Source of the DNA: an uncultured Phascolarctobacterium sp.
Lineage (GTDB): Bacteria > Bacillota > Negativicutes > Acidaminococcales > Acidaminococcaceae
DNA length: 57,755 nt
Reading direction: 5' to 3'
NCBI GenBank assembly: GCA_949299135.1
Contig: CASFZG010000008.1
Location: 1-57,755, forward strand
Position numbers and translations under genes: made by a program
Shown: piece after piece, positions 5,663 through 19,714 of the stretch
How positions within the stretch are numbered: position 1 is the stretch's first letter
Layout of the letters: each line of letters begins with the position of its first letter
Notes under the pieces: generated by a model
Seen by the model: the letters and a program-made list of their open reading frames with translations, nothing else
Databases searched by the model: none
What the model was told of the DNA's origin: nothing

Positions 5663-5690
5663 CGCACCCGCAATTACTTGCAAGTGCGCA
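5663..5690. terminator. Original terminator hairpin at the left junction
   Basis: An imperfect hairpin (CGCAC...GCAA ttac TTGC...GTGCG) is flanked on the left by A-rich sequence, which is T-rich on the reverse strand. It sits where the tRNA-Arg transcript would have ended before the element inserted, and it is downstream of gluQRS on the plus strand. It was probably the original tRNA-Arg terminator. Confidence 0.5.
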
Positions 5691-5742
5691 TATTTACTGG
5701 TGATCCCGGGCAGATTCGAACTGCCGACCTACCGCTTAGGAG
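5686..5742. repeat. Left attachment repeat (attL), 3' half of tRNA-Arg
   Basis: A 57-bp sequence identical to 19626-19682. It contains the CCA end, the T arm and the 3' side of the anticodon arm of the intact tRNA-Arg(CCT) at the right end. The identity stops at the anticodon loop, after which this copy continues into unrelated sequence. It is a remnant and cannot form a tRNA. The arrangement is the usual product of tyrosine-integrase insertion into the 3' part of a tRNA gene. Confidence 0.9.
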
Positions 5743-6148: not shown

Positions 6149-6568
6149 CTAGTCCCGAGAATGATCTGCAAAGTAATTTTTCAAAATATCTTCAAAAGAG
6201 CCATCTTTAACTTGGCATTCCCATATGACCAATACATTCCAACCGCTACATTCAAGTTTTTCAATATTTCTTTTGTCGCGGGCAACATTTTGACAGAACT
6301 TTTCTTCCCAGAAAGCAACATTTGTTGCAGGTGTTGAGGCATATTTGCATCCTGGATGCCTGTGCCAGTAGCAACCATTAACAAAAATAATTAAATAATG
6401 TTTTTTTAAGACTATATCAGGCTTTCCAGGTAAGTTTGCGCATTGTATCCTAAAACGGTATCCGTGTCTATGTAGCCATGAGCGAACAATCAGTTCTGGT
6501 TTGGTGTTTTTGCCTTTGATATTCGACATACATTTGTGCCGTTGTTCTGATGTAAGTACATCAGACAT
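6149..6568 (-). CDS. vsr: Vsr-type very-short-patch-repair/restriction endonuclease
   Basis: Nuclease of the PD-(D/E)XK-related Vsr family. Classical Vsr nicks T:G mismatches created when 5-methylcytosine deaminates, while relatives act as restriction nucleases with C5 methyltransferases. The 139 residues carry PDIVL (Asp51), the FVNGCYWHRH core with Cys66, His69 and His71, and Cys74 and Cys118, which correspond to the zinc and catalytic positions of E. coli Vsr. E. coli Thr63 is Val here. The ribosome-binding site is AAAGGAG. Intact and AT-rich, it is separated from the methyltransferase by the DUF6017 remnant. Whether it repairs or restricts cannot be told from sequence. Confidence 0.92.
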   Translation of the reverse strand: MSDVLTSEQRHKCMSNIKGKNTKPELIVRSWLHRHGYRFRIQCANLPGKPDIVLKKHYLIIFVNGCYWHRHPGCKYASTPATNVAFWEEKFCQNVARDKRNIEKLECSGWNVLVIWECQVKDGSFEDILKNYFADHSRD

Positions 6569-6846
6569 TCTGTTCGTCTCCTTTAAACATTAATTTTTCA
6601 TTTGGCCATTCAAGTCATAAAAACAATTCTAAAATATGGAAATCTTACTTCTATTGTAAGTAAATATATCTACAATATCATTCAGAACTGTATTGAAATG
6701 GGTCAAAAATTCTGCACTTTTCCTTCTGCAATGGGCCAGAAGACCACCGCCCATAGGTTTTCCCCTCCATGGCATCTGGGCGGCATAGAGGCTGCCTTTC
6801 CTACGAAAACGAGCACTTTTCCAAACCGCTGAAAGGATGTGATACC

Positions 6847-7711
6847 ATGGCGGTATTTCGCATCGAGAAAACCCGTGACTACACGGTGATGTCCAACCAC
6901 CACTTGCGGAATGCGGGGCTATCCCTGAAATCCAAAGAGCTGCTCTCCATTATGCTGTCCTTGCCGGAGGACTGGAACTACACCACCAGGGGCCTAGCCA
7001 AAATCTGCAAGGAAGGTACAGACAGCATCGGATCAACCCTGAAGAAGCTGGAACGGGCCGGATACATAGTCCGCAATCGGCTACGGGACAGCAAAGGCAA
7101 GATCGTGGATGTGAAGTATGTCATTTACGAGACACCCATTACCCAGACACGTGCCAGCCGTGTTAGGACGAACCGGATACGGCTTGTCCAGATACGGAAA
7201 ACCTGGATATGGATAACACATGTCTGGCGGCCGCAATTAAATAAAGAGAAAAGAAATCCTGAAGAACAAAATACTAATTCATCAAGTACGGAAGGATCAA
7301 ATCCTATCCAATCAACCCCCCGCAGGGGCCAAACGGATCGGACAGGACTGGATGCGGGAGCGAGAGAGCTATCGGGAATTGATTTTGGAGAACATCGAAT
7401 ATGACATCCTCGTACAGAACGAGTGCATGGACCGTGACCGTCTGGACGAGTTGGTGGAGCTCATGGTGGACACCGTCTGTTCCCGAAGGGAGGCAATCCG
7501 CATTGCTGGGGACGACTATCCGGCGGAAGTGGTCAAATCCCGGTTTCTGAAGCTGAACAATTCTCACATCGAGTATGTGTTGGACCGTATGCGGGAAAAC
7601 ACCACCTATGTCAGCAACATCAAGAAATATCTGCTGGCTGCCCTTTATAATACCCTGGCCACCATTGACAGCTACTATGCGTCCTTGGTGAACCATGATC
7701 TGTATGGTTAA
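6847..7711 (+). pseudogene. DUF6017/RepA-N-like HTH protein of conjugative elements, frameshifted
   Basis: Starts MAVFRIEKTRDYTVMSNHHL with a winged-helix domain (SLKSKELLSIMLSLPEDWNY, then GLAKICKEG), as in the replication-associated protein of Tn1549/CTn2-type elements. The first frame holds to about codon 100. A short stretch then reads correctly only in another frame (DTENLDMDN), and the original frame resumes (QLNKEKRNPEEQ). From about 7350 the C-terminal DUF6017 domain continues in a third register (ENIEYDILVQNECMDRDRLD and onward, ending SLVNHDLYG at 7711). At least three frameshifts are required, so a functional product is unlikely. Confidence 0.85.
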
Positions 7712-7738
7712 CACAATTCGTTGTAAATGTGGGGATTT

Positions 7739-8794
7739 TTAAGATGGAGATCGTTCAGAAAGCATGGCATTTTTTGCACTACGGACAATGTATTTGCCCA
7801 TTGCTTCTGCCATTTTGACAGGAACAGCATTTCCGATTTGCCTACCAATGGATACAAAAGTCCCGTAGAATACATATTCATCGGAAAAAGATTGAAGTGC
7901 AGCTGCTTCTCGCAATGATATCGCTCTATCTTGTGTTGGATGACCATATCTCCCATTGGACAGACTATAGCATCGCGCTGTAAGCGTAGGTGCCACTTTC
8001 TCCCAATCCATTCTGCCATATACATCTGTATGTCCTGTATGCCCATTGTTGTGACATTTAAGAATTAACCGAGGGGGCCAAGAGCGTCTATCTCCACCAG
8101 AATGGGGTGTATGCTGTATGCGCTCTAAATTTATAGCAGATAAAGCCGATGCCTGATGGTTTGGAACAGAGTCATTATGACCACCAGCACTAATCTCTGG
8201 AAATTTTGCAATTGCATCTCTGACGGTGCGATATGGTGTTTTCCCTGCGCCAAATGTTCCTTCTGGTATTGTGGGTTTGAAGAACCGTGATGCAATTAAT
8301 ACAAATCGCTGACGATTTTGAGGTACACCATAATCCTTTGCGTTTACAACTTTATAGTCATACAAATATCCACTTTTTTCTAGTACAGAAATAAAAGAGT
8401 CAATAACTTGTTTCCCTTTTCCACGAATACCGGGCACATTTTCAACGAAAACATGAGCCGGTTTAATTGCCTCAACAATCCTACCAAATTCAACAAGCAA
8501 ATTGACATCTTTATGAACTGTCTTTGCATGTCTTTGCGAACTGAACGGCTGACAGGGAGCGCACCCGGAAAAAAGCAACTGATCCTCTTTACCCTTAATT
8601 GCTGGAAAGTCTCCGCAAATTTGCTCTGCATTTACATTTCGTATATCTGCACATATAAATTTTGCTTTATTATTTTTTTCATAAGTATCTTTGTAGTCAG
8701 GACAACTATCATATCCCCCGAGCACAGATATGCCTGCTCCTATGAGCCCGTTCGTCAGACCGCCCCCACCACAAAAAAAGTCAATTGCAATCAT
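7739..8794 (-). CDS. DNA (cytosine-5)-methyltransferase
   Basis: Transfers methyl from SAM to C5 of cytosine in a specific, unknown site. The 351 residues contain the family motifs in order: FFCGGGGLTNG (motif I), CAPCQPF with catalytic Cys81 (IV), FVENVPGI with Glu118 (VI), QNRQRFVLIAS (VIII), a target-recognition region, and GNAVPVKMAEA (X). Motif X has Val where Pro is usual. The start ATG at 8794 overlaps the stop of the receiver gene as ATGA, showing translational coupling. An upstream in-frame start would add 20 residues inside the receiver gene and is not needed. It is the last gene of the kinase-receiver-methyltransferase operon, and its partner nuclease may be the Vsr protein. Confidence 0.93.
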   Translation of the reverse strand: MIAIDFFCGGGGLTNGLIGAGISVLGGYDSCPDYKDTYEKNNKAKFICADIRNVNAEQICGDFPAIKGKEDQLLFSGCAPCQPFSSQRHAKTVHKDVNLLVEFGRIVEAIKPAHVFVENVPGIRGKGKQVIDSFISVLEKSGYLYDYKVVNAKDYGVPQNRQRFVLIASRFFKPTIPEGTFGAGKTPYRTVRDAIAKFPEISAGGHNDSVPNHQASALSAINLERIQHTPHSGGDRRSWPPRLILKCHNNGHTGHTDVYGRMDWEKVAPTLTARCYSLSNGRYGHPTQDRAISLREAAALQSFSDEYVFYGTFVSIGRQIGNAVPVKMAEAMGKYIVRSAKNAMLSERSPS

Positions 8795-9864
8795 GGTTTC
8801 ATTAATTCCTTTGCCCACAGGTCCATATTTCGGTCTGGCATACCAGGTCTGCAAGAATTAATCATATAGGCCCATACAATTTGTTCTCTAAACGGGCTGT
8901 CAACAGATGCCACTCGAAAATAATCGTGTTGTTCTGGCTTAATGCTCTCAACATTCAATGCAACTTTATCAAGTGGTATAAACTCCAATTGTTTGAGGTC
9001 AACTGTCAAATATGGTAACGATTCAGGAAATGCAGGTAGTGAGACATAATTGTTATGATAACCAGCATTCAGATGGCTTGTTATGCTGTTAATCTGACCG
9101 TTAGTAGGGTTATCTCTAGGAGTGTACGAATGAAAAACATTTTTATCGTAACACTTTGCACATAGAGCATGAGTCACTTTATTTTGTGCTATGTCGCAAG
9201 AAGGAGTTAAGATCAAATGATACTCGTCTGGTTCTCCTATTTTCAGCAGGTCATCTTTGGTAGGAGAAACTTTTTTTATGATATCACAAACACACAAAGA
9301 TTTAGCAATAGGAGGACAAATATATTGAATCCATGGTGGTGCATTCTCACTGCAATTCTCATCGAAATAGTTTGACACTCTTTTTGCAAGGACAAAGCGC
9401 ATAACACCGTCTGTAATACCATCTGTCTTGCTCATGGGTATAATTGAATTGAGAGCCACAATAAGTGCATCATTAAAATCGTGTTTTAACGTGGAAATCG
9501 TAGAAACAAATTTTTCAATAGTATCCAGATATTTAATTACCGGATCTTCATCACCTTTTGATTGAATTTTCACCAGATTACTAGAAGTATACTTTTGGTC
9601 CAATGTAATTAAATCTGCATAACCGGAAAAAATAATAACAGGCTTAAATCCGTTTTCCCACATTCTTTCTAATAGGGTGTTACCTTCCATATCGCCTGAT
9701 GCGTCATCTTTCCAATCTAGAACTACCACATCTGGATCAAACTCTGGAAATTCACGATCAAACTGATCAAACGAAATGGGTTTGCATTCCCATCCACTAT
9801 CATCACAATGGTCTTTTATACCTCTGACAGCTTCAGGCCTGTCATCAATTATAAGCACCTTCAT
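8791..9864 (-). CDS. Receiver-domain protein with unassigned C-terminal domain
   Basis: 357 residues. The N-terminal 125 or so form a receiver domain with every key position: acidic pair Asp7-Asp8, phospho-acceptor Asp50 (VVVLDWKD), Ser80 (IIFSGYAD) and Lys103 (KIQSKGDE). The remaining 230 residues match no output domain I recognise. They contain a conserved-looking HLILTPSCDIAQNKVTHALC stretch and several Cys residues (CDI, CAKC), which might bind metal. No HTH or nuclease motif is evident. The start ATG at 9864 follows AAAGGA with 8-base spacing. It lies 22 bp after the GHKL kinase-like gene and overlaps the methyltransferase start, so it is the likely phosphorelay partner of that kinase. 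Confidence 0.8.
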   Translation of the reverse strand: MKVLIIDDRPEAVRGIKDHCDDSGWECKPISFDQFDREFPEFDPDVVVLDWKDDASGDMEGNTLLERMWENGFKPVIIFSGYADLITLDQKYTSSNLVKIQSKGDEDPVIKYLDTIEKFVSTISTLKHDFNDALIVALNSIIPMSKTDGITDGVMRFVLAKRVSNYFDENCSENAPPWIQYICPPIAKSLCVCDIIKKVSPTKDDLLKIGEPDEYHLILTPSCDIAQNKVTHALCAKCYDKNVFHSYTPRDNPTNGQINSITSHLNAGYHNNYVSLPAFPESLPYLTVDLKQLEFIPLDKVALNVESIKPEQHDYFRVASVDSPFREQIVWAYMINSCRPGMPDRNMDLWAKELMKP

Positions 9865-9886
9865 CAGCAATATCCTTTCTCTATAT

Positions 9887-12010
9887 TCATGCTATAGGTA
9901 CATCGAAAACAAAAGTTGCCCCACCCAATGTTCCAGGAACAATAGTTGCTATTTTACCATTATAATAATTCAGTAATTCCGTAACAATCGTTAATCCCAT
10001 TCCTATTCCATGAGGTTTGGCCGTAACTCCAGCATCGAAAATCAACTGCGCATCGCTCTCTTTTATGCCAGGACCATTATCACTTATTGTTATCTGCAGC
10101 CTGTCTTTATTAACAATCTTATATTCAAGTGATATTTGTTTGGAGCCTTGATTGCTTTTCATCCAGTAGCATGCGTTATCAATAAGATTTACAAAAACTG
10201 TCTGCAATTCACCTTCATGCATTCCAATATTGATTTCAGGCACATTATCAATTTTAATGCTGACATCTTTTGCATATTTTTGCCCTTGCACCAGTCTTAC
10301 ACTACTAAGCAAAGTGTTTCGCAATATACATTGATTTTTTCTGTTCCTTAAGTCCGCTCGATACAGAGGCGCAAAACTTTTTGCAACTTCCAATAACCGT
10401 GTATGGCTTTTTCCCGCATCTCTATAGTATTCTTCTGTTCTGGAATCAAACGGAGAATACTCTTTAGAAACACGGCGTAAAAAGCGCTTGATTACTGTCA
10501 TTCCAGTCAAGATTTCATGGAGAATAACAATGGCAACTGACCCAAGAGAAGCGGTTTGGGCATAATATGTAAGCCTGGATTGAAGCGCTTCAATTCCCTT
10601 TTCATTCTGGCTTGAATATTCTCTGACATATTCAAGAATATTCTCATATTTTTCTCCATTGTCTACAGCTCGCTCGATTTTTTGCACAAGCACTTGAGCG
10701 GAAAGCGGTGCCATCAAGCTATTGATGCTTGGCTTTTCACGGTGATCTTCAGTATTTTTATCAGTATTTCTTAGTTTCTCCAATTGAGAAATTACTGTTT
10801 CGACAATTTTGGAAAACTGCTTGTATTCCTCAGTATCAACCAATTTCTCGCGATCCGTTGTGTCCCGTATTTCGGGATTTTCTGACGACGAAACATTAAT
10901 AATTCCAATTATTTGATTAGTGCTTATACGGGTACCGATGCTACTGACACGCCGCAAGTCAATACCAAGCCAATCTTTTGATGCACTCGATTTTGGCAAT
11001 ACCAAAACATCATCACGATATATTGATAAACCTTTATATTGATTGATTGTGTTCCTGATTGCGCGCCTTTTCAAGCCAAAAGTCGAGGTCAAATCTTCCA
11101 AACTATTATTGTCTAAATCCCAACAACGGATTTCAAAAGTAAACTTTCCAGCTCTGTATGAAGGAAGGCTATTTTCCTCCAAAATCAGAACATTCGTATT
11201 GAATCCTCGACTTGCTTCTTCCCATAAAATTTTCCCGTCTCGCGTTTGAGGATTCTGATGCTTGTTTTTGGGCTCAAAAATGTAGTTCCAATTTACTACG
11301 CCATCACTATTCACATCTCCCCAAATCCGATAAGTAGGGTGTTCAATAAAATCTGATGGCTTTATTTCTATTGGAGCATCGTAGAATGGAGAAGTGAGAG
11401 TGATTTCAAATTGATCGACCTTCTTGAATGGAGATATCAGTCTTGATAAATTCTCACGCAGTTCATCAATTTTCTTTTGATCCCATTCGGATGTCAATTT
11501 TCGAATTCTTAAAATTGTTCCAGATTGTTCAAATACACAATCATCATCGTCCAATGTTTCGATTAATATTTTGCAATCATTGACATTATTTGACTCTACA
11601 AAAGAATTCCAGTCCATTTTTGCGTGAAGGAAGTTGTCACCATCACTTTTTGTCCACATGTGCATTATGTTACCAAGCCTTGCAGCAGAAAAACGACCTA
11701 ATCCTTTGTTACCGGAAACCCTCCTGATTTTCCCGTTCCTATAAACAACAGGATTCTTTTCTTTGTAAGGTGTGGCTATAACTGCCCAAGAGTTTTCAAT
11801 TATACCACTAGTCATTCCTAGCCCGTCATCAGTGATTTGGATGTATTTTCCGCGCTTATCCTCGCCGAACTCAACTTGTACATGATATGCAAATGCATCA
11901 TAACAATTTTTCACTAATTCAGTAACAGCAACCGTATCGTTGGTTACCAAATCTGCTCCAAAGGCAGCAAATGCTCTGGGATGAAATTGCATGGATATTG
12001 TTTTTTTCAT
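9887..12010 (-). CDS. Double-GHKL ATPase with histidine-kinase core
   Basis: About 707 residues with two GHKL ATP-binding modules. The N-terminal one resembles MutL/Hsp90/MORC ATPases: ELVKNCYDA near 32-40, ITDDGLGM near 60, GNKGLGRFSAARLG near 100-115. The C-terminal one is of histidine-kinase type: FVNLIDNACYW near 612 (N box), ISDNGPGI near 646 (G1) and HGIGMGLTIV near 669 (G2). Between them, near residue 497, AIVILHEILTGM looks like a dimerisation/phospho-acceptor helix with a candidate His. No membrane segments are seen, so it is probably cytosolic. ATGs at 12016 and 12028 are alternative starts; 12010 has the best spacing (10 bases) from GAGGTG. The gene is intact, AT-rich and followed closely by the receiver protein. 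Confidence 0.85.
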   Translation of the reverse strand: MKKTISMQFHPRAFAAFGADLVTNDTVAVTELVKNCYDAFAYHVQVEFGEDKRGKYIQITDDGLGMTSGIIENSWAVIATPYKEKNPVVYRNGKIRRVSGNKGLGRFSAARLGNIMHMWTKSDGDNFLHAKMDWNSFVESNNVNDCKILIETLDDDDCVFEQSGTILRIRKLTSEWDQKKIDELRENLSRLISPFKKVDQFEITLTSPFYDAPIEIKPSDFIEHPTYRIWGDVNSDGVVNWNYIFEPKNKHQNPQTRDGKILWEEASRGFNTNVLILEENSLPSYRAGKFTFEIRCWDLDNNSLEDLTSTFGLKRRAIRNTINQYKGLSIYRDDVLVLPKSSASKDWLGIDLRRVSSIGTRISTNQIIGIINVSSSENPEIRDTTDREKLVDTEEYKQFSKIVETVISQLEKLRNTDKNTEDHREKPSINSLMAPLSAQVLVQKIERAVDNGEKYENILEYVREYSSQNEKGIEALQSRLTYYAQTASLGSVAIVILHEILTGMTVIKRFLRRVSKEYSPFDSRTEEYYRDAGKSHTRLLEVAKSFAPLYRADLRNRKNQCILRNTLLSSVRLVQGQKYAKDVSIKIDNVPEINIGMHEGELQTVFVNLIDNACYWMKSNQGSKQISLEYKIVNKDRLQITISDNGPGIKESDAQLIFDAGVTAKPHGIGMGLTIVTELLNYYNGKIATIVPGTLGGATFVFDVPIA

Positions 12011-12371
12011 TGTCATAATGCACCTCATAAGTAAGGAGATGGAACTGTGAATTCTCTATTTTATCTGTTAGTAAAAACAGAATATTTTTTCTTGACAGAG
12101 TCAACGAAAGCACAGCAAGATTAAAGTCCTATTGTATGGAATATGCCGATTACACATGCTCCATTTTAGAAGCATTGGGTAAGTTCAGAATTCGACATAT
12201 TGAAAAATGCATACTGGCTCAAGAACATTATGCATTCAATGACGCTTTTAATAAAGCAAAGAATAACAAGTTTATTTTTTGCAATAAAAATGCTAATTCA
12301 GTTACAGAATTGGTTTTGGTCGATATTCTCAATAATCCCTGGCACTATGCAATAGCAATCGTCCACTGCAG
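12011..12371. other. Gene-poor leader region with a TTGAC-type palindrome
   Basis: No convincing gene is seen between the GHKL gene and the small HTH gene. A perfect inverted repeat TTGAC-AGA-GTCAA lies at 12092-12104 and a second, CTGTT-N6-AACAG, at 12065-12080. Both are upstream of the GHKL gene and could be operators for the neighbouring HTH protein. A plus-strand open frame of 80 codons (12136-12378) has no ribosome-binding site and no recognisable homology. Confidence 0.4.
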
Positions 12372-12545
12372 TCATTGATTTTTCTTGAGCCGCTTATCAA
12401 TTGGTTTTTGTGCACTACTAGGAATCGCCCATGATTTTCCAAGTCTCTGCACACCAGCTATTCGCCCTTGCTCACAGAGAACTTGAACTCGACGTTCAGA
12501 AATTCCCCATTTTTGTGCAGTTTCTTTTGCCGTCAAGTATTCCAT
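12372..12545 (-). CDS. Small helix-turn-helix regulator (57 aa)
   Basis: A complete small gene on the reverse strand encoding 57 residues. It starts MEYLTAKETAQKWGISERRV and continues with CEQGRIAGVQRLGKSWAIP. This is the HTH-17/excisionase-like winged helix seen in small regulators that often precede restriction-modification or defence operons. The ATG at 12545 is five bases after AGGTG; the directly preceding ATG is too close to it. It has its own promoter (12577-12605) and is oriented toward the GHKL-receiver-methyltransferase operon, so it is a plausible controller of that operon. It could instead be a leftover Xis-like protein of the element. Confidence 0.75.
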   Translation of the reverse strand: MEYLTAKETAQKWGISERRVQVLCEQGRIAGVQRLGKSWAIPSSAQKPIDKRLKKNQ

Positions 12546-19601: not shown

Positions 19602-19628
19602 AACGCCCTTCCAAAAACTGGAAAGGCG
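19602..19628 (-). terminator. Element-borne terminator for tRNA-Arg at the right junction
   Basis: On the reverse strand, just past the tRNA CCA end, the hairpin CGCC-TTTCC...GGAA-GGGCG is followed by a T tract. It takes the place of the chromosomal terminator now displaced to 5663-5690 and shares its first bases with the 57-bp repeat. Confidence 0.6.
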
Positions 19629-19682
19629 CATATTTACTGGTGATCCCGGGCAGATTCGAACTGCCGACCTACCGCTTAGGAG
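19626..19682. repeat. Right attachment repeat (attR), inside intact tRNA-Arg
   Basis: 57 bp identical to 5686-5742. It covers the CCA end to the anticodon loop of the tRNA plus 12 bp beyond the CCA end. Confidence 0.9.
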
Positions 19683-19714
19683 GCGGTTGCTCTATCCTGC
19701 TGAGCTACGGAACC
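19638..19714 (-). tRNA. tRNA-Arg (anticodon CCT)
   Basis: The reverse strand folds as a full cloverleaf of 77 nt with encoded CCA. The acceptor stem is GGTTCCG/CGGGATC with two G-U pairs. The D arm contains TAGCTCAGCAGGATAGAGCA. The anticodon stem ACCGC/GCGGT encloses CTCCTAA (anticodon CCT), and the T arm contains GTTCGAATC. It is the integration target of the element, which left it functional by supplying an identical 3' half. Confidence 0.95.

Follow-up and report, generated by a model that had tools for sequence, protein, structure and literature searches.

Pairs of a histidine kinase and a response regulator encoded with a C5 cytosine methyltransferase and the mismatch endonuclease Vsr were described in 2021, computationally and with no experiments. 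In these HEF_HK/Response_reg_2 elements (PF19191, PF19192; Bellieny-Rabelo et al. 2021, PMC8011034), the kinase combines HATPase_c_3, DHp, and HATPase_c domains, the receiver gene is adjacent to that of the kinase, and C5 methylase and Vsr genes lie nearby. N-terminal GHKL ATPases linked to cytosine methylases and Vsr are also known from the paraMORC group (Iyer et al. 2008, PMC2292703), in a paper that uses neither the term receiver nor the term response regulator, and a related N-terminal GHKL domain is found in the BbrUII/HgiDII restriction enzymes (NF050001). Phosphorelay defense by a kinase, a receiver, and an effector is represented by Detocs (DtcA/DtcB/DtcC; PMC11728103). Here, we analyzed a 57,755-nucleotide stretch of DNA from an uncultured Phascolarctobacterium sp. 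(assembly GCA_949299135.1, contig CASFZG010000008.1, positions 1 to 57,755; referred to as the window), in which one operon encodes a double-GHKL histidine kinase, a receiver protein, and a C5 methylase, with a Vsr gene close by. What appears new in this locus is the output domain of the receiver protein and its predicted fold, which resembles that of the MazF and CcdB toxins.

Because the window kinase scores below the cut-off for PF19191 (13.9 against 24.1 bits, in the right place, 10355-10543) and the window receiver has no PF19192 match at E ≤ 10, the locus is, as judged from these profiles, a sister branch of the HEF_HK/Response_reg_2 kind. The kinase domains, the adjacent receiver gene, and the nearby C5 methylase and Vsr genes of the window are laid out as in those elements. 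Two genomes with window-type loci contain, at other positions, loci that the two models match above cut-off, and a bona fide HEF_HK locus (L100) has the order Vsr, C5 methylase, kinase, receiver protein. An initial annotation, made from the letters of the DNA alone, had not recognized the mix of kinase, receiver, methylase, and Vsr as a named system, and this combination had in fact been described already. PADLOC, which that annotation had proposed to search, holds no named system that fits the gene set. The output domain and its fold are absent from the description of the 2021 elements (PMC8011034). In the part of the literature that we covered, we found no experiment on this kind of system, no receiver fused to a MazF-like domain, and no earlier description of the output domain.

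The anatomy that the initial annotation had read from the sequence is real. The kinase (709 amino acids [aa]; 9887-12016, ATG at 12016), the receiver protein (357 aa; 8791-9864, ATG at 9864), and the methylase (351 aa; 7739-8794; PF00145, 1e-54) form a tight operon, with a 22-bp gap between kinase and receiver genes (9865-9886) and an ATGA overlap between receiver and methylase genes (8791-8794), both read directly from the sequence. These three genes, the Vsr gene, and a small upstream gene are intact and on the minus strand, to which the coordinates of residues given below also refer. The methylase motifs PCQ, ENV, QNRQR, and GNAV are legible, and the protein shares 57% identity with its counterpart in the nearest relative (L020); its PADLOC matches to DruM and DrmMII were set aside as general C5 similarity.

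The kinase carries a MutL/MORC-like GHKL unit at its N terminus (HATPase_c_3, 3e-18), followed by a complete histidine-kinase core (HATPase_c, 5e-20). Searched as a profile, residues 1-420 match structures of Hsp90/HtpG and MutL, and we noticed no transmembrane stretch by eye. Unlike in paraMORC proteins, the GHKL unit is fused to a full kinase and paired with a receiver. Among 77 aligned kinases, residues E33, N37, D63, G65, and G67 of the first GHKL unit, residues N610, N614, D646, G648, G650, G672, and G674 of the second ATPase, and the predicted phospho-donor His500 in an ILHEI box (10517-10519) are all invariant. The receiver domain matches PF00072 below cut-off (E of 0.001), and its assignment comes from structure: the AlphaFold model of the protein (predicted local distance difference test score [pLDDT] of 91) aligns with solved response regulators over 113 residues (Z of 14.6, 2.2 Å). 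D8, D50, T/S80, K/R103, and likewise D/E7 are held in 40/40 aligned receivers, D50 (9715-9717) being the predicted phospho-acceptor. Because both the donor histidine and the receiver residue set are conserved, kinase and receiver look competent for phosphotransfer, a step that we infer.

Beyond its receiver domain, the receiver protein is conserved over residues 146-357, a region that matches neither a Pfam family nor any PDB sequence. Because a structure search with the whole protein was dominated by receivers, we predicted the output domain (residues 188-339; 8848-9303) alone. Modeled from 38 sequences (pLDDT of 92.5), it matched MazF-mt3 in VIA over 100 of 105 residues with a Z score of 11.4 (root mean square deviation of 2.4 Å), exceeding the best Z of 7 to 8 that is typical there for models without a clear match, and it matched Staphylococcus aureus MazF in Foldseek (E of 6.6e-4). 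All of the top structural matches are MazF, Kid, or CcdB proteins, and a viral structure library gave weak matches to PemK-like phage proteins. The output domain is therefore predicted to have the MazF/CcdB toxin fold; other folds may apply, since the match list is filled by one family. Cys223, Pro277, and Gly341 are invariant in the 40 receiver proteins. In the conserved pair Cys223-Asp224 (9193-9198), the aspartate is kept in 36 of 40, and Arg339 of an RxGxP motif (8848-8850) is kept in 38; the two sequences without Arg339 (L050 and L052) also lack Asp224. Unlike in the MazF, Kid, and CcdB toxins, the domain is fused to a receiver and accompanied by no antitoxin gene.

The output domain recurs outside the window-type receiver protein. 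It is found in a longer receiver subfamily (hhalign probability of 95%, E of 1.8e-8), is weakly present in the bona fide Response_reg_2 protein of L100 (motifs LTPRCD and RIGLD), and occurs as standalone proteins of 176 to 183 residues (98%, E of 4e-14). The standalone proteins (L107:6098-6628 and L108:6164-6715) have no Pfam or NCBIfam match, and that of L107 adjoins type I hsdM and hsdS genes.

To place the operon among its relatives, we searched genome contigs with the kinase alignment and retained the 80 best loci; they were picked by kinase similarity and not by their neighbors, so that the sample is biased toward window-like kinases, and their open reading frames were called by script, with some starts too early. 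These loci come from more than 10 phyla. Homologs lying mainly apart from methylases, which the initial annotation had named as the outcome contrary to its proposal, were not what we observed: 44 of the 48 loci with at least 5 kb of flank on both sides encode a C5 methylase no more than 5 kb from the kinase. The same tally bears out kinase, receiver, and methylase as a conserved unit, and all three are retained in the nearest relatives (L020-L030 and L054; 38 to 48% kinase identity). Within this unit, inheritance differs. Over 69 loci, with identity-based distances, 300 permutations, and shared ancestry handled by permutation only, kinase distances correlate with receiver distances at a rho of 0.745 (0/300 permutations as high), with methylase distances weakly (0.25), and with Vsr distances not at all (-0.01). 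These values indicate that kinase and receiver are the unit, that the methylase is swapped, and that Vsr comes and goes.

Domain and PADLOC-DB scans found no recognized restriction endonuclease in the window operon beside its C5 methylase; a weak REase_II match of the kinase is confined to the GHKL part. Three of the nearest relatives (L023, L024, and L054) consist of Vsr, kinase, receiver, and C5 methylase, with no further recognized nuclease in the operon. The four-gene set is followed by a DUF362 gene in L027 and preceded by type-I-like genes in L030. No restriction enzyme recurs in the 48 additional genes that we scanned, most of them in-operon and some of them divergent receiver candidates; ResIII, HsdR, DUF4420, HNH_2, and PDDEXK_7 occur there as single, sporadic genes. 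A hidden restriction enzyme common to the relatives was rejected on these grounds. The minimal loci, having no restriction enzyme, speak for the kinase-receiver pair as the active arm and leave it as the candidate effector, with caution called for by L016 and L017, in which such an enzyme is present.

From the operon, domains, conserved residues, predicted fold, co-inheritance, and C5 linkage, all of them computed, we infer sensing, phosphotransfer, effector activity, and a role in defense or addiction as follows. The N-terminal GHKL unit, of MutL/MORC/Hsp90 type, is probably an ATP-driven clamp that senses the state of DNA, most simply target sites left unmethylated, either in invading DNA or in a host from which the methylase has been lost. 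Once closed, the clamp would activate the C-terminal kinase, leading it to autophosphorylate at His500 and hand the phosphate on to Asp50 in the receiver protein. Phosphorylation of Asp50 would free the fused output domain to act on nucleic acid or the replication machinery, so that growth stops or the invader is killed, while the C5 methylase would mark self DNA and Vsr would repair deaminated 5-methylcytosine. We put the probability of this whole chain at roughly 45%. The more specific proposal that the MORC-like sensor kinase reads methylation and unlocks a new family of MazF/CcdB-fold effectors with a Cys-Asp/Arg site is more tentative, and we would sooner bet against it than for it.

Carriage on mobile elements counts in favor of the proposed chain, as does the ratio of nonsynonymous to synonymous substitution rates (dN/dS) of close pairs, which is well below 1. 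The window operon lies in a tRNA-flanked element, a 13.9-kb integrated element bounded by 64-nucleotide, att-like direct repeats (5679-5742, with a partial tRNA-Arg, and 19619-19682, overlapping tRNA-Arg(CCT) at 19638-19714) that are 95% identical. Conjugative plasmids of Campylobacter carry kinase, receiver, and a convergent dcm gene (e.g., NZ_CP092024.1 [L005] and CP120313.1); in one group of Campylobacter plasmid records, the kinase is annotated as two pieces. The kinase search gave matches in 745 plasmid records. A tblastn search of plasmids with the receiver protein gave no match, and peptide patterns found no close relatives in viral contigs.

The proposed chain shares the idea of a phosphorelay with Detocs. 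Unlike Detocs, the window set is methylase-linked, its effector fold is different, and it includes no DtcB-like phosphate buffer. The Detocs effector is of the nucleotide-phosphorylase type, and the window operon encodes none such. PADLOC-DB gave no Detocs match for kinase or receiver, in a library for which the presence of Detocs models was not confirmed.

Several observations weigh against the proposed chain. Profile comparison found no relation of the output domain to MazF/PemK profiles (hhalign, 2% probability) and no PF02452 match, and the catalytic arginine and threonine of MazF vary in the output-domain alignment, the conserved residues being instead Cys-Asp and Arg. In view of these two results, the fold does not by itself justify assuming toxin activity, and a shared fold does not establish a function shared with MazF or CcdB; SH3-like barrels also work as binding domains. 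The standalone output-domain proteins of L107 and L108 have no obvious kinase alongside. In L016 and L017, moreover, the pair lies next to a restriction enzyme gene and may be accessory there. These last two loci also favor a different explanation, in which the pair regulates a neighboring restriction-modification system, phosphorylation adjusting how strongly the methylase or a restriction enzyme is expressed or how active it is. Two-component systems mostly regulate, and such a role was speculated on for the 2021 elements (PMC8011034). However, the output domain has no known DNA-binding transcription fold, the co-inheritance of pair and methylase is weak, and the minimal loci have no restriction enzyme to be regulated, so we regard regulation as distinctly unlikely.

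Alternatively, kinase and receiver together could be an ATP-dependent, methylation-sensitive restriction nuclease, the GHKL unit loading on unmethylated sites and the output domain, through its Cys-Asp and Arg, cutting DNA itself instead of poisoning the host. The kinase N terminus is closest to the NCBI family of BbrUII/HgiDII restriction enzymes (E of 1.7e-21), although the score of 79 bits is far below the cut-off of 550 and only the first ~200 residues match. The minimal four-gene loci, in having no other recognized nuclease, fit this idea as well, and sister loci employ proteins with a metallo-β-lactamase (MBL) fold or HNH proteins. In L010, L012, and L014, related kinases have an N6 methylase and a separate MBL or HNH protein as neighbors; there, the receiver-like protein is short and without the output domain, and the MBL or HNH gene follows it, an apparent exchange of effectors that also counts in favor of the proposed chain. 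(Kinase, short receiver-like protein, and MBL-fold protein are seen in L010, L012, L015, and L096, the first two of which also have an upstream N6 methylase; L014 is a variant with an HNH protein and an N6 methylase.) Against a nuclease, the output domain has no nuclease-fold match, its best matches being MazF and CcdB, and a simple restriction enzyme needs neither a receiver nor a phosphorelay. We consider a nuclease possible but unlikely and continue to prefer the phosphorelay to a toxin-fold effector.

The Vsr gene (139 aa; 6149-6568) lies beyond the operon, as the initial annotation had stated, but is not a member of it, because a plus-strand gene of the host element (6769-7711, HTH_36/DUF6017) separates it from the methylase. 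The HTH_36 and DUF6017 parts of this replication-type gene are in two overlapping frames, probably through a frameshift. The window Vsr is a standard one (TIGR00632, 138.5 bits, cut-off of 97.9) that aligns with Escherichia coli Vsr (1cw0) over residues 3-121 (E of 3e-28). In the relatives, Vsr is found within 5 kb of the kinase in 27 of the 48 loci with full flanks and is absent from 21; given a background of 45 Vsr genes in ~157 Mb over 37 genomes, ~0.3% would be expected for an interval of this size, so its presence near the kinase exceeds chance. Six loci without Vsr carry an HhH-GPD (mismatch-glycosylase-like) protein, and in two of these, the C5 methylase is fused to the HhH-GPD part (L041:5775-7709 and L043:7137-9059). 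HhH-GPD T:G glycosylases are known to stand in for Vsr. Because HhH-GPD takes the place of Vsr in the six loci, Vsr here is best read as an accessory for the repair of deaminated 5-methylcytosine. The window genome itself encodes a second C5 methylase and Vsr (G000:C10:13846-15084), each assigned to an open frame of 489 codons, possibly a methylase-Vsr fusion.

The initial annotation had suggested that modification or restriction may be under phosphorelay control, a version in which Vsr would be the restriction nuclease. Its nearness to the operon and enrichment near relatives suit that role; its standard sequence, the unrelated gene between Vsr and the operon, the lack of co-evolution with the pair, and the Vsr-less loci, six with HhH-GPD, do not. 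We give this version almost no credence, and Vsr was rejected as the effector on the grounds of its rho with the kinase and those six loci. The association of a MutL-like GHKL unit, Vsr, and a C5 methylase also resembles very-short-patch repair, and with Vsr near over half of the kinases, the set might be a housekeeping or epigenetic circuit with no role in defense, e.g., one that senses mismatches or damage at 5-methylcytosine sites. Such a circuit seems very improbable given the patchy spread of the system (output domain in 4 of 398 genomes of the phylum), its carriage on mobile elements, and a Vsr that is not co-inherited with the pair.

Other genes near the operon are less closely tied to it. 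The small excisionase-like helix-turn-helix (HTH) gene (12376-12545; TIGR01764, 17.6 bits, cut-off of 28.8) ends ~360 bp before the kinase. The initial annotation had counted it with the system, a grouping that does not survive comparison: no HTH counterpart was seen at that place next to the kinase in relatives, and a role as operon regulator was rejected for the same reason. The conjugation-type genes of the 13.9-kb element (VirD4/TraG- and VirB4-like) look broken into several frames. In some relatives (L008, L037, L039, L040, L045, L049, L082, L089, and L094), Z1-domain proteins (MZA-like, with helicase/ATPase genes) lie within some kilobases of the kinase-receiver pair.

The set may work as an alarm that is tied to methylation and directed against foreign DNA. 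If the phosphorelay-gated toxin is correct, it would be a methylation-dependent abortive infection or addiction system run by a two-component system rather than by a restriction enzyme, and it would link two-component signaling, restriction-modification, and toxin-fold effectors, fields that are usually separate. It would offer a testable account of what the two-component-system-like elements reported in 2021 do and would define a recurrent output domain without a Pfam or PDB sequence counterpart. Many pairs of C5 methylase and Vsr beside annotated sensor kinases would then belong to an unrecognized system.
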